This document shows positions 57,955 to 64,000 of a stretch of DNA of 64,000 bases, one piece after another. A program made the position numbers and the translations under genes. Below the pieces are notes generated by a model, which saw only the letters and a program-made list of their open reading frames with translations, ran no database searches and was not told the DNA's origin. The DNA is from an uncultured Clostridia bacterium (GTDB lineage: Bacteria; Bacillota; Clostridia; Christensenellales; Aristaeellaceae). Numbering within the stretch: the stretch's first letter is position 1; each line of letters begins with the position of its first letter. Where the stretch lies: contig CANRLC010000006.1 in the NCBI GenBank assembly GCA_947631405.1, forward strand, positions 1-64,000, read 5' to 3'.

Positions 57955-60900
57955 ATGAAGAGCATCAGGCGCAGGCGCGTCGCCGCCGTGACGGCGCTGC
58001 TCCTGCTGGCGCTGGCCGTGCTGGCCGTGCGGCCCATGCGCCGCGGGCAGGAGGCGGCGAGCGAGGGCAACCTCATCCGCAACGGCGACTTTTCCGCCGT
58101 CACAAACGGCATGCCCGACGAGTGGAACACGGGCATGTGGGTGACGTCGGCGGGCGCGTCGTATCTGGAGGCGGCGACGCTGCCGGACGGCACGACGGCC
58201 GCGCTGGTCGAAAACGCCGCCCGCAACGACGCGCGCTTTGAGCAGACCGTCGCCGTGCAGCCGAACACGACCTACCGCCTGAGCGCGCGCGTGTGCGCCG
58301 AGGGCTGCGAGGAAGGCCGCGTCGGCGCGAACGTCTCCTTTCTGGGCATCTATGGGACGAGCGAGTGCGCCTACGACACGGACGGCGCGTTCACGACGCT
58401 GACGCTCTACGCGCGCACCGGGTCGGATCAGCACGAGGCGACGGTCTGCGCGCGGGTGGGCGGCTACGGCTCCGAGGCGCAGGGCAAGGCGTGGTTCACC
58501 GACGTGGAATTGACGGCGACCGACGACGTGCCCATCGGCGCGCAGGTGCTTAGCATCGCGCCGCAGGAACCCGCCCGGGACTCCGCCGAGGAGGCGGAGG
58601 AGGGCGCTGCGCCGTCCTTGACCATCCCGGCGCTGCTGATCGCGGCGGCCGTCTATCTGGCGATCGCGTGGGCGATCGCCTCCGGCGCGCTGCGCGCGGG
58701 CGCAAGGGAGAACCTCGACCCGCGCCGGGGCTGGCGCGGCGAGCTGGCCGCGCTGCTGGCCGCGGCGGGCGCGCTGCGCGTGGCGCTGGCCTTCGCCGTG
58801 GAGGGCTACGGCGTGGACATGGGCTGCTTCACCGCGTGGGCGATGCGCATGGCCGAGGTCGGCCCGCGGGGCTTCTATGAGAGCGGCTATTTCTGCGATT
58901 ACCCGCCCGCCTACATGCTCGTACTGGGGCTGTTCGGCGCGGCGGCGAATCTCTTCGGCTTCCCGCTGACGGGCGCGCTCGGGCAGGGCCTGCTCAAGCT
59001 GACGCCCATCGTCTGCGATCTGCTGCTGGCCGCCGTCGTGTTTGCCGTCGCCTCCCGCGAGGCGGGCAGGCGGCCCGCGCTGGGCATCGCCGCGCTGATC
59101 GCGGCCAACCCCGCGTTCATCGTCGCCGGGAGCTGCTGGGGGCAGATCGACGCGCTGCTGGCCGTGATGCTGTGCCTGATGCTGCTGCTCGCCCGCGAGG
59201 GAAAGTGGCACGCCGCCATCCCGCTCTTCGCGCTCGCCGTGCTGGCCAAGCCGCAGGCGGGCCTGCTCGCGCCGCTGGGCGTCGCGGCGCTCATCCGCGC
59301 GCTCATGCGCGGCGACCGGGCGCGCTCGGGCAAGTCCATCCTCACGGGCATCGGCGTCGCGCTGGCGCTGACGCTCGCCGTCGTGCTGCCCTTCGCGCTG
59401 CCGCAAAACCCCGTGACGTGGCTCATCGACCTGTATGGGCGCACGCTCTTCGGCTACAAATACGCGACGCTCTCCACCGGCAACCTCATGTTCCTGCTGG
59501 GCGGGAACTGGGTCGAGACCGACACGGCGCTCCTCGGCGGGATCACCTACGGACAGATCGGCGCGGCGATGATGGCGCTCTCGTTCGCGGCGGGCATCGC
59601 CGTGTACCTGCTGGGGCAGGGGAACGGGCGGCTGATGCTCGCCAGCGCCGTGACGATGCAGGGCGTCTTCGCGCTCGGCTCGATGATGCACGAGCGCTAC
59701 ATCCTGCCCGCGCTGGCGCTGCTGCTGCTCGCCTATGTGGAGACGGGCGACGCGCGGCTGCTGCTCTCCTGCGTGATCGCCAGCGCCGCCGCCGCCGTCA
59801 ACATCGGCGTCGTGCTCGCCTACGATTACCTGATCGACCCCAACCTCTGGCTGGGCTACCTGATCTCCATCGCACAGCTCGCCGCGCTGGCGCTCACGCT
59901 CTACACCGCCGCGCGGCTCTCGCTGGGCGGGCAGGTCGTGCGCCTGAAGGCGCGCGCGCCGAGGGCGGAGCAGAGCGCGGCGCATGGCGGCGAAGCGCCG
60001 GTGGACGCGCGCGAGGCGCGCATGCGGGACGAGCTGCTCGCGCCCCGCGAATACCGCCTGCGCCTGACCCGGCGCGACTGGGCGGCGATGCTGGGCATCA
60101 CCGCCGTGTACGCCGTGGTGGCCTTCTGGGGGCTGGGCGCGACGCGCGCGCCGCAGGGCGGCTGCACCTCCACCGCCGAGGGCGAGACGGTCGTCTTCGA
60201 TCTGGGCGAGCGGCGCGAGGACTTCCACATCTACTATTACGGCGGCGTCTCCTACGCAGGCTTCACCGTCGCCGCCTCCGACGACGGGGAGGACTACGGC
60301 CAGCAGACCGAGGCATACATGGCGCAGGGCGAGTGCTACAAGTGGATGGCCGTGCGCACGCCGCTCTTCGATCAGGAGGGCGAGGTGCAGGGCGTCACCG
60401 GGTCGATGCTTGATTTCTCCGGCCGGTACGTCTCCCTCACCTTTAAGGACGCGGGCGTGGCGCTCTGGGAGGTCGCCTTTGTGGACGGCGCGGGCCACGC
60501 GCTGCCCGTCGTGAGCGCGCGCATCTACGGCGGCCTCGAGGGGCGCATGGGCGACCCCATGGCGCTCGTGGACGAGCAGGACACCGTGCCCGACAAGCCG
60601 TCTTATCTCAACAGCATGTACTTCGACGAGGTCTACCACGCGCGCACCGGCTACGAGCACGCGCACGCGCAGTACACCTACGAGACGACGCACCCGCCGC
60701 TTGGCAAGGTGTTCATGAGCTGGTGCATCCGGCTGATGGGCATGACGCCGTTCGCGTGGCGCTTCGCCGGGGCGCTGGCGGGCGTGCTGATGCTGCCCGC
60801 ACTCTACCTGCTCGCCAGACAGCTCTTCGGCCGCACGCGCTGGGCGGCGCTCAGCACGCTGCTGCTGGCGGCGGACTGCATGCACTACACGCAGACGCGC

Positions 60901-61914
60901 ATCGCGACGATCGACTCGTTCCCGGTGCTGTTCATCCTGCTGATGTTCTTCTTCATGCTGCGCTGGACGCAGATGAGCTTCTTCCACCAGAAGCTCTCGT
61001 ACACGTTCGTGCCGCTGGCGCTGTCGGGTCTGAGCATGGGGCTGGCCATCGCCAGCAAGTGGATCGGCGTCTACTGCGCGGTCGGGCTGGCGCTGTTCTT
61101 CTTCGCGCGGATGGCCGCGCTCTGGCGGCAGAGCGTCTACGCGCAGCGCCACCGCAAGGAGAACGCGGCCTTCGCCCGCGCCGCCGACGCCTTCCCGCGC
61201 AATGCCGCGCTCACGCTGGCCGCGTGCGTCGCGTTCTTTGTGATCGTGCCGCTTGCCGTCTACTGCGCGAGCTACATCCCCTACCTGCGCGCCTACGGGC
61301 CGGTGAAACTCAATGCGCAGACCTTTGAGCGCATCTGGCACGCGCAGCTGACCATGTACAACTACCACCACAATCTGGTGGCGACGCACACCTTCGCCTC
61401 CCCGTGGTACGAGTGGCCGGTCATCGCCAAGCCGATCTGGTATTACAGCACGCCGTATTCCGCGCCGGGCAAGTTCTCCACGATCATGAGCTTCGGCAAC
61501 CCCGCCGTCTGGTGGACGGGGCTGGCGGGCATCGTGCTCGTGCTGCTGCGCAGCGCGCAGCGAAATGCGCTGCCCGCGCTGCGCGTGCTGCCCGTTCGCG
61601 GCGACGCGCTGGACGACGCCCTGCCGCTGATCGCCGTGGGCTTCCTCTCGGCATATCTGCCGTGGGTGCTGGTGCCTCGGCTCACGTTCATCTACCACTA
61701 CTTCGCCAGCGTGCCGTTCATCATTCTGGCGACGGTGCAGTGCCTGCGCTACGCCGAGCGCCGCGAACCGAAGGCCGCGCACATCGTGGCGCTCGCGCTG
61801 GGTGTCGCCTCGGTGGCGCTGTTCATCGCCTTCTATCCGCTGGCCTCCGGCGTCGAGGCGCCGATCGCGTGGTTTAACGCGATGAACTGGTTCAAGGGGT
61901 GGATGTATTACTAA
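57955..61914 (+). CDS. Giant fusion: CBM-like N-terminus, GT-C (GT87-like) core and protein-O-mannosyltransferase (PMT/GT39)-like core
   Basis: 1319 aa; LIRNGDFSAVTNGMPDEW CBM-like start; GSCWGQIDALLAV and MMHERYILPA; then PMT hallmarks FDEVYHARTGYEHAHAQYTYETTHPPLGKVFMSWCIRLMGMTPFAWR. Confidence 0.85.
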   Translation: MKSIRRRRVAAVTALLLLALAVLAVRPMRRGQEAASEGNLIRNGDFSAVTNGMPDEWNTGMWVTSAGASYLEAATLPDGTTAALVENAARNDARFEQTVAVQPNTTYRLSARVCAEGCEEGRVGANVSFLGIYGTSECAYDTDGAFTTLTLYARTGSDQHEATVCARVGGYGSEAQGKAWFTDVELTATDDVPIGAQVLSIAPQEPARDSAEEAEEGAAPSLTIPALLIAAAVYLAIAWAIASGALRAGARENLDPRRGWRGELAALLAAAGALRVALAFAVEGYGVDMGCFTAWAMRMAEVGPRGFYESGYFCDYPPAYMLVLGLFGAAANLFGFPLTGALGQGLLKLTPIVCDLLLAAVVFAVASREAGRRPALGIAALIAANPAFIVAGSCWGQIDALLAVMLCLMLLLAREGKWHAAIPLFALAVLAKPQAGLLAPLGVAALIRALMRGDRARSGKSILTGIGVALALTLAVVLPFALPQNPVTWLIDLYGRTLFGYKYATLSTGNLMFLLGGNWVETDTALLGGITYGQIGAAMMALSFAAGIAVYLLGQGNGRLMLASAVTMQGVFALGSMMHERYILPALALLLLAYVETGDARLLLSCVIASAAAAVNIGVVLAYDYLIDPNLWLGYLISIAQLAALALTLYTAARLSLGGQVVRLKARAPRAEQSAAHGGEAPVDAREARMRDELLAPREYRLRLTRRDWAAMLGITAVYAVVAFWGLGATRAPQGGCTSTAEGETVVFDLGERREDFHIYYYGGVSYAGFTVAASDDGEDYGQQTEAYMAQGECYKWMAVRTPLFDQEGEVQGVTGSMLDFSGRYVSLTFKDAGVALWEVAFVDGAGHALPVVSARIYGGLEGRMGDPMALVDEQDTVPDKPSYLNSMYFDEVYHARTGYEHAHAQYTYETTHPPLGKVFMSWCIRLMGMTPFAWRFAGALAGVLMLPALYLLARQLFGRTRWAALSTLLLAADCMHYTQTRIATIDSFPVLFILLMFFFMLRWTQMSFFHQKLSYTFVPLALSGLSMGLAIASKWIGVYCAVGLALFFFARMAALWRQSVYAQRHRKENAAFARAADAFPRNAALTLAACVAFFVIVPLAVYCASYIPYLRAYGPVKLNAQTFERIWHAQLTMYNYHHNLVATHTFASPWYEWPVIAKPIWYYSTPYSAPGKFSTIMSFGNPAVWWTGLAGIVLVLLRSAQRNALPALRVLPVRGDALDDALPLIAVGFLSAYLPWVLVPRLTFIYHYFASVPFIILATVQCLRYAERREPKAAHIVALALGVASVALFIAFYPLASGVEAPIAWFNAMNWFKGWMYY

Positions 61915-62142: not shown

Positions 62143-62174
62143 GACCTGCCGCACATGCGCGGCGGGTCTTTTTT
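62143..62174 (+). terminator. Intrinsic terminator upstream of the surface-protein promoter
   Basis: AGACCTGCCGC...GCGGCGGGTCTTTTTTT. Confidence 0.85.
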
Positions 62175-62216
62175 TGCCGAAAAGGCGAAAAGTTCAAAAA
62201 ACCTTTCTGGAAAGCC

Positions 62217-62247
62217 TTGACAAAAAACTACCGGGGGGGGGTATGAT
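62217..62247 (+). promoter_or_regulatory. Putative phase-variable promoter with G9 tract in its spacer
   Basis: TTGACA (62217-62222), AAAAACTACC + G9 (62233-62241), TATGAT (62242-62247); spacer 19 nt. Confidence 0.75.
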
Positions 62248-62306: not shown

Positions 62307-64000
62307 ATGAAGGAACAGAAAAGCAAGAGGATGCTCGCGTGGGTGCTGAGCGCGATGCTGCTGCTGTCCAACCTCCCGTTCGCGCTTGCGCAGGGGCTGG
62401 GCGAGGGACATCCGGACGAGGCGACGCCTAGCGAGGGCCTCGAGACCATCGCAGACGACGAGATGACGCCCTGCCCGGAGGGCGAGCACGCCTTTGTGGA
62501 CGGCGTCTGCACGGCGTGCGGAACGCCCTGCGCGCATGAGTTCAAGGCGGGCGTCTGCACCGTGTGCGGAGCGGCTTGCGCGCACGTCTTTGTGGACGGC
62601 GTCTGCGCCGTTTGCGGCGCGGAGGAGCCGGGCGAGGACGACGAGAACGCGTTGAACGACGAGAATACGTCGGACGATGAGACCGTGCCGAGCGGCGAGA
62701 CAGTGTCGGACGAGGCGACGCCGGGCGAAGGTACCGAGGAGATCGTCAGCGACGAGACGGTGTCGAACGACGAAACGGCATCGAATGACGAGACCGCGTC
62801 GAACGACGAGACCGTGTCGGACGAGGCGACGCCGGGCGAGGGCGCCGAGGAGGTCGTCAGCGACGAGACGGTGCCGAATGACGAGACCGTGTCGAACGAC
62901 GAGACTGTGTCGGACGACGAGGGCGCGACGGGCAGCGAAAGCGCATCGGACGACGAGACCGTACCGGACAACAAGCCCGAACCCTGCGCGGACGGCGCGC
63001 ATGTGTTTGAGAACGGCGTTTGCACGGTGTGCGGCACGGTTTGCACGCATGATTTCGTGGACGGCGTCTGCGCAAAGTGCGGCAAGAAGGAACCCTGCGC
63101 GGACGGCGCGCACGACTTTGTGGACGGCGTTTGCACGGTGTGCGGCGCTCCGGCGGATTCCTCCAAGGATCAGAGCGAGGAGGTATTTGACTTTGGCGTG
63201 TCGCTGATGGCGTTGGATGGGGAATGTACGCACGAGAACGCAAATTTCGGGCCGTATCAATCGACGACTGTTCCGCCTACGCCCAACGGCGACGGTACGC
63301 ATACCGTCACATATGATTGGATGCTGTATAGTTGTCCGACGTGCGGCGCAAAGAGCGTCGTAGTGGAAGCCGGATATATGACGATGAGAGAACCATGCTA
63401 TTATAATGATATGGATGATGTATGCGATGCATGCGGCTACGAATACAAATGCGAACATAAGTGGACAAAACAGGAAGAATGGCTTAAGAATGTAACTTAC
63501 GTTGGTTACAACGGCAACGGCACACATACCGAGATTGGCGATCTTTTCAGGCGGACAGTTTGCGTCACTTGCGGCAAGACGGTGAGTGAAGGGATTGTTC
63601 AAACGGGAGTGAGTGAGACTGAACCATGTTATAGCTATCAAGGCAAACAGAACTGTAGGGTGTGCAATGCGCCGCTTCTCGAAGGCGTAGCCTGTGCCCA
63701 TACGAACCGCGAATATTACTGGCTTCTAGTCGGCGGCTGTACTGGCGAGGACAATGGGGATGGCACGCACACAGAAACGTATGTGTTGGGCAAGTATTGG
63801 TATTGCGAAAACTGCGGCAGGGAAGAGCGCGACGAATCCGGCGAGACGACAGTCCAAATCTGTGTCGAGCCGCACCGTATGAAGTGGGATGGAACATGCT
63901 ATGATTGCGATTATATTGCCGGCAGCGATTATGTGGACAAAAGAGCCACATGTGAGCACAAGAACAAACGTGAAGTCCTGACAACAGATTTCACCATTTC
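62307..64000 (+). CDS. Secreted repeat-rich surface protein with Cys/His motifs (3' truncated by window end)
   Basis: ATG 62307 after AAGGAGACGGGG; MKEQKSKRMLAWVLSAMLLLSNLPFALAQG signal peptide; frame open to the window edge; six HxFxxGVCxxCG motifs and an acidic ETVSNDE-type repeat region; not in the supplied ORF track. Confidence 0.88.
   Translation, partial: MKEQKSKRMLAWVLSAMLLLSNLPFALAQGLGEGHPDEATPSEGLETIADDEMTPCPEGEHAFVDGVCTACGTPCAHEFKAGVCTVCGAACAHVFVDGVCAVCGAEEPGEDDENALNDENTSDDETVPSGETVSDEATPGEGTEEIVSDETVSNDETASNDETASNDETVSDEATPGEGAEEVVSDETVPNDETVSNDETVSDDEGATGSESASDDETVPDNKPEPCADGAHVFENGVCTVCGTVCTHDFVDGVCAKCGKKEPCADGAHDFVDGVCTVCGAPADSSKDQSEEVFDFGVSLMALDGECTHENANFGPYQSTTVPPTPNGDGTHTVTYDWMLYSCPTCGAKSVVVEAGYMTMREPCYYNDMDDVCDACGYEYKCEHKWTKQEEWLKNVTYVGYNGNGTHTEIGDLFRRTVCVTCGKTVSEGIVQTGVSETEPCYSYQGKQNCRVCNAPLLEGVACAHTNREYYWLLVGGCTGEDNGDGTHTETYVLGKYWYCENCGREERDESGETTVQICVEPHRMKWDGTCYDCDYIAGSDYVDKRATCEHKNKREVLTTDFTI

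Follow-up and report, generated by a model that had tools for sequence, protein, structure and literature searches.

Among the systems described so far, those closest to the protein considered here are the SasG and Aap rods of staphylococci, long surface rods in which G5-E modules or B-repeats form tandem, thin three-stranded sheets with no compact core. Contacts between such rods are mediated by zinc; we know of no Cys/His metal sites built into the rods themselves. The importance of zinc in Aap adhesion has been documented (PMC4330918). The present protein may resemble these rods, its tandem modules being predicted to have three long strands each, and they are among its best fold matches, albeit below significance. 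It differs from them in having no Pfam G5 match, no significant fold match, and another kind of C-terminus that lacks LPXTG. Most likely, it works like the SasG/Aap rods without being a member of that family.

Three other systems share particular features with the repeated module. Zinc ribbons and rubredoxin-type knuckles, which are mostly intracellular, have similar paired CxxCG knuckles and account for most of the sub-threshold Pfam matches. However, no curated profile cut-off of these families was reached, and the module differs in its eight putative ligands, which probably form two sites where strands of ~15 residues end, as well as in being exported and arranged in tandem arrays. C2H2 zinc-finger arrays are likewise built of tandem metal modules, and the profile matched both designed and natural arrays in the PDB (best 3.6e-10). 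These matches appear to rest on the spacing of CxxC and His and were set aside as coincidence; the predicted module has no finger helix, follows the ligand order CHHCCHCC and is exported. The collagen-flanked surface repeat CFSR (PF19079) has a similar NGDGTHT turn; it scored 18.4 and 26.9 bits (the latter in the paralogue P0002) against a cut-off of 27, with a match that covers about 14 of 49 positions and leaves the Cys/His sites of the module outside, except for the His of the turn itself.

Neither the module nor the C-terminal domain (CTD) reached any curated Pfam or NCBIfam cut-off, and searches with whole proteins returned only low-complexity or sub-threshold matches; a literature search found no description of the module. 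The term "uncatalogued", used in an earlier sequence-only reading of this DNA, is thus well chosen. Matches to internalin K, SslE and ClfB fell wholly or largely within a Pro/Thr/Glu linker and were discarded, as were multihaem cytochromes, since the motifs are mostly CxxCG rather than CxxCH.

The gene, its surroundings and the architecture of its product

The window, which denotes the whole 64,000-nucleotide stretch analysed, comprises positions 1-64000 of contig C6 (65990 bases) in a 2.28 Mb draft genome of 68 contigs that is 94% complete. It contains an ATG start and 564 complete codons of the gene, with no stop. The open frame noticed at 62307 (+) in the sequence-only reading proved to be real: on the full contig it continues beyond 64000, with neither a frameshift nor an early stop, to a stop codon at 65868-65870, ~120 bases before the end of the contig. 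The encoded protein has 1187 aa, including 65 Cys and 31 His.

The promoter-like elements upstream (Table 1) were read directly and recur, with 18 nt spacing, in the aligned upstream region of the paralogue on contig C33; they are missing from the list of a consensus scanner. The same scanner gave no entry for a terminator-like stem with a T run behind it, seen by eye at about 62144-62176 (+) between this gene and the one before it. The adjoining upstream gene (window 57955-61914, +) encodes a membrane protein of 1319 aa bearing PMT_4TMC/PMT domains (protein O-mannosyltransferase family), which could modify the Ser/Thr-rich stalk described below; the C33 paralogue has other neighbours, namely dnaJ/dnaK (names taken from the translations).

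The product starts with a signal peptide (residues 1-28), followed by three compact units (56-72, 75-88 and 91-104), an acidic Ser/Thr stalk (105-226) and three further compact units (227-243, 246-259 and 264-280). The compact units have the formula C-x(1 or 4)-H-x6-C-x2-C-G. Eight full modules of ~75 residues each then begin at residues 307, 382, 463, 549, 635, 716, 806 and 882, and are succeeded by a Pro/Thr/Glu linker and a CTD of ~150 residues. This architecture agrees with the earlier description of a secreted, modular protein: the signal peptide, the six HxFxxGVCxxCG motifs, the stalk (as DETVSNDE repeats) and three larger NG[DN]GTHT...CxxCG modules are all present. The count of three holds for the window only, at the edge of which a fourth module begins, and the total is eight. 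The C-terminus had been expected to carry LPXTG, SLH or a repeat tail, but the protein instead ends in the lineage-restricted CTD. As read from the translation, it has no LPXTG and no C-terminal hydrophobic segment, although sortases are encoded in the same genome; SLH domains were found neither in the protein nor in the genome.

Table 1. Coordinates of the features of the gene and its upstream region (window positions unless a contig is named)
Feature	Position	Strand	Remarks
Promoter-like TTGACA - 19 nt - TATGAT	62217..62247	+	direct reading and upstream alignment with C33
Window part of the 1187-aa gene	62307..64000	+	564 codons; rest on contig C6 to 65868-65870
Signal peptide MKEQKSKRMLAWVLSAMLLLSNLPFALA	62307..62390	+	n-, h- and c-regions in translation; near-identical in P0002
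Compact module 1	62472..62522	+	C-x4-H-x6-C-x2-C
Compact module 2	62529..62570	+	C-x-H-x6-C-x2-C
Compact module 3	62577..62618	+	C-x-H-x6-C-x2-C
Acidic Ser/Thr-rich stalk	62619..62984	+	DETVSNDE repeats
Compact module 4	62985..63035	+	
Compact module 5	63042..63083	+	
Compact module 6	63096..63146	+	
Full module 1	63225..63449	+	Cys at third His position (EPCYY)
Full module 2	63450..63677	+	EPCYS, Cys at or beside third His position; basis includes AlphaFold2 model
Full module 3	63693..63923	+	basis includes AlphaFold2 model
Full module 4, start only	63951..64000	+	leaves the window edge
Modules 4-8, linker and CTD	contig C6 63951-65867		

The module and its candidate metal sites

By using a profile built from one regular relative, 221 distinct modules were collected from 45 open frames in this genome and related genomes. 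The pattern C-x-H ... H ... C-x2-C ... H ... C-x2-C is exact in 207 of them, and the eight positions are occupied, in order, by C in 220 (with one gap), H in 221, H in 217, C in 221, C in 221, H in 213, C in 220 and C in 221 modules, percentages that are somewhat inflated because the profile rewards these ligands and that come from partly related, non-independent modules. The recurrence of the same eight Cys/His positions in 221 modules of 45 frames rules out chance as the source of the pattern. Where the second His is replaced, it gives way to Cys (three modules) or Asp (one), and the third to Cys (five) or Tyr (three), one of these Tyr calls, in the window protein, being an alignment shift beside a Cys (EPCYS). 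The remaining columns are variable, with a Gly (74%) as the best. Swapping of His for Cys, confined to fixed positions while the surrounding residues vary, typically marks metal ligands, and the eight positions are read as probable ones on this ground.

AlphaFold2 modelling of two tandem window modules together with 34 related pairs gave a mean pLDDT of 87.8 and a pTM of 0.52. Three long strands were predicted in the first module (6-20, 25-38 and 44-59), and the modules consist of strands only, the sole helix lying at the C-terminal tail of the model. The model holds no metal; from the strand order of the antiparallel meander, C1, H3, C38 and C41 would form a CHCC site at one end of the module, and H26, H60, C69 and C72 an HHCC site at the opposite end (numbering follows the modelled module; the 221-module profile places the last pair at 68 and 71). 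Both His residues that tolerate change, H26 and H60, belong to the predicted HHCC site; the compact units resemble this putative site alone, with Cys replacing H26. The geometry between modules is uncertain, given the two-module pTM of only 0.52. A Foldseek search of the PDB found nothing significant for the module, the best match having an E-value of 0.0096 and TM-scores below 0.22; the best of these sub-significant matches include the Aap B-repeats (E 0.0096) and SasG G5-E modules.

Whether the Cys residues bind metal or form disulfides had been left open in the sequence-only reading. A disulfide-stabilised extracellular repeat, in which the Cys residues pair after export and the His residues are incidental, would suit an exported, Cys-rich protein, and Dsb catalysts do occur in some Clostridia (PMC12453122). 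However, the same source describes a tendency of obligate anaerobes to keep Cys out of the proteins they export. In addition, each full module has five Cys, an odd number, and several single-copy proteins, as read from their sequences, seemingly have exactly five Cys in the mature chain. Furthermore, the three His are conserved as strongly as the Cys and are mostly swapped for Cys, and the VKOR and DsbA families had no match in the 94% complete genome while control genomes were matched. Those relatives that bear names are Clostridia assembled from metagenomes, including one from sheep rectum and one from goat colon, and from them we infer a gut origin and an anaerobic life for the source genome. 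Considering the odd Cys count, the invariant His, the His-to-Cys swaps, the lack of a DsbA/VKOR match and obligate anaeroby, the evidence favours sites that would hold metal, most likely zinc, and pairing of the Cys residues is judged to be distinctly improbable.

The module is a mobile, self-contained domain, as it is found once in small proteins and beside unrelated domains. Small exported proteins of another genus carry it a single time with all five Cys and three His, and one to a few copies adjoin Big_2, copper amine oxidase N-terminal and EndoU domains. At the other extreme, the profile detects the unit in all full-length members, which have 15, 19 or about 20 copies, and the longest about 22-24. 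These arrays bear on the idea that the modules scavenge or store extracellular metal (zinc or other) instead of using it structurally, since eight putative ligands per module in about 22-24 modules could hold dozens of ions. Yet the spacing of the putative ligands, with long strands in between, is that of structural CCHC/HHCC sites, storage makes little sense for single or few modules beside Big_2, copper amine oxidase N-terminal or EndoU domains, and the flanking genes inspected on C6 (O-mannosyltransferase family) and C33 (dnaJ/dnaK) give no sign of metal uptake. Storage is therefore regarded as improbable, and a structural role for the metal is preferred.

Several individual carriers of the module were also noted. 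A narrower profile search of genome contigs gave seven loci. In another family of the class, a frame (L083:283-2649) encodes three modules followed by a C-terminal EndoU nuclease (PF14436, E 1.3e-21), which is the layout of a polymorphic toxin. In a genus labelled g229, some of whose genomes are near-complete in one or two contigs, a short exported protein (frame of about 260-320 aa; loci L112, L115, L116, L117, L119 and L125) carries exactly one module; its conserved C-terminal half, tested for L112, had no Pfam match.

The C-terminal domain and divergence between copies

Modelling of the CTD from the sequence of a relative gave helices followed by a four-strand sheet (pLDDT 86, pTM 0.78), for which no fold match was found in the PDB. 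A match of the CTD profile to k-cTRP5 (E 8.8e-06) involved 50 helical residues, none of whose stretches passed alone, and was rejected as homology. Of the 52 frames with the CTD, some of which are overlapping views of one gene, 51 have it within 0-7 residues of the C-terminus. Modules accompany it in 37 of the 52; among the other 15, some are cut by locus ends, and others have Listeria-Bacteroides-type or other Cys repeats. Among 200 genomes of the family, the CTD was found in 30 and the module in 38, while in a class-wide sample of 291 genomes the CTD was found in this genome only and the module in six, this genome counted. Its presence at the extreme C-terminus of otherwise unlike exported proteins suggests that the CTD serves attachment or sorting, position and sharing being the grounds for a role at the envelope.

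The same genome encodes two paralogues: contig C33 carries P0002 (1051 aa), and C32 a shorter third member. Near-identity between the C6 and C33 genes covers ~120 bases of upstream sequence, the signal peptide and the final 165 codons, with five differences in 495 nt of the CTD part, three of them synonymous (99% DNA identity), whereas the modules share about 45% protein identity and show many silent differences. A similar block structure, with a conserved 3' part, marks the 3' ends of two copies in a relative (G014). This pairing of near-identical ends with divergent modules, of which the 3' part is seen again in G014, would be best explained by recombination between copies that homogenises the ends while the arrays diverge freely.

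Two further explanations of this mosaic deserve consideration. An assembly artefact, in which an identical CTD became attached to upstream sequence not its own, might be suspected in a draft of 68 contigs with C6 stopping ~120 bases after the stop codon, where the paralogues are alike. Nevertheless, five sites and the downstream flank distinguish the C6 copy from the C33 copy, and separate relatives show the same architecture within single contigs, which makes a misjoin exceedingly improbable. Alternatively, diversifying selection may act on the protein as an adhesin or decoy, its arrays being reshuffled among copies as in antigenic variation systems. The shared 5' end and CTD of C6 and C33 with divergent arrays, and the shared 3' part of the G014 copies, are what such a process would leave; however, a casual look at these loci noticed no silent cassette, invertase or phase-variation repeat, and this reading is considered possible but doubtful. 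It is compatible with, rather than opposed to, a metal-clamped rod.

A different kind of exported Cys-repeat protein, P0003 (999 aa; L007:7869-10868, contig C29), combines CxxCG with HxW motifs and has a Pro/Thr/Glu tail of great length; a sub-threshold PT repeat is its sole trace of a curated family.

Proposed mode of action and significance

The explanation preferred here, with a probability of roughly 0.6, is that the protein forms an exported, elongated, metal-clamped fibre, with the CTD held at the envelope and the variable rod directed outward; ligand clustering, the identity of the metal, the shape of the rod in solution, envelope attachment and adhesion are what we infer. The sequences themselves establish how far the gene extends, how the module is defined, the conservation of the candidate ligands, the paralogues and their mosaic identity, and the strand layout is a model prediction. 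Metal ions, most likely Zn2+, would clamp the two ends of a thin antiparallel sheet of three beta-strands in each module of ~75 residues and would substitute for a hydrophobic core or disulfides. Such clamping would suit a strict anaerobe, as DsbA and VKOR are apparently lacking. Joined head to tail, the modules would build a rod on the acidic stalk. The CTD would most likely hold the protein at the cell envelope, so that the variable rod points outward and may contact cells, substrate or host. Recombination between copies would keep the signal peptide and CTD homogeneous as the repeat arrays diverge.

A broader generalisation is put forward only tentatively: a new exported tandem metal-site domain may replace disulfides in strict anaerobes and build variable surface fibres, a CTD of new fold may act as a general envelope anchor in this Clostridia family, and recombination may preserve the anchor while varying the fibre. 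Cys tends to be scarce in what obligate anaerobes export (PMC12453122); by contrast, an exported family in which dozens of Cys and His are invariant would represent another route to stable extracellular modules, one that requires neither oxygen nor a disulfide system. If the CTD does attach these proteins to the envelope, it would constitute a new anchoring signal in a large family represented here mostly by metagenome assemblies.
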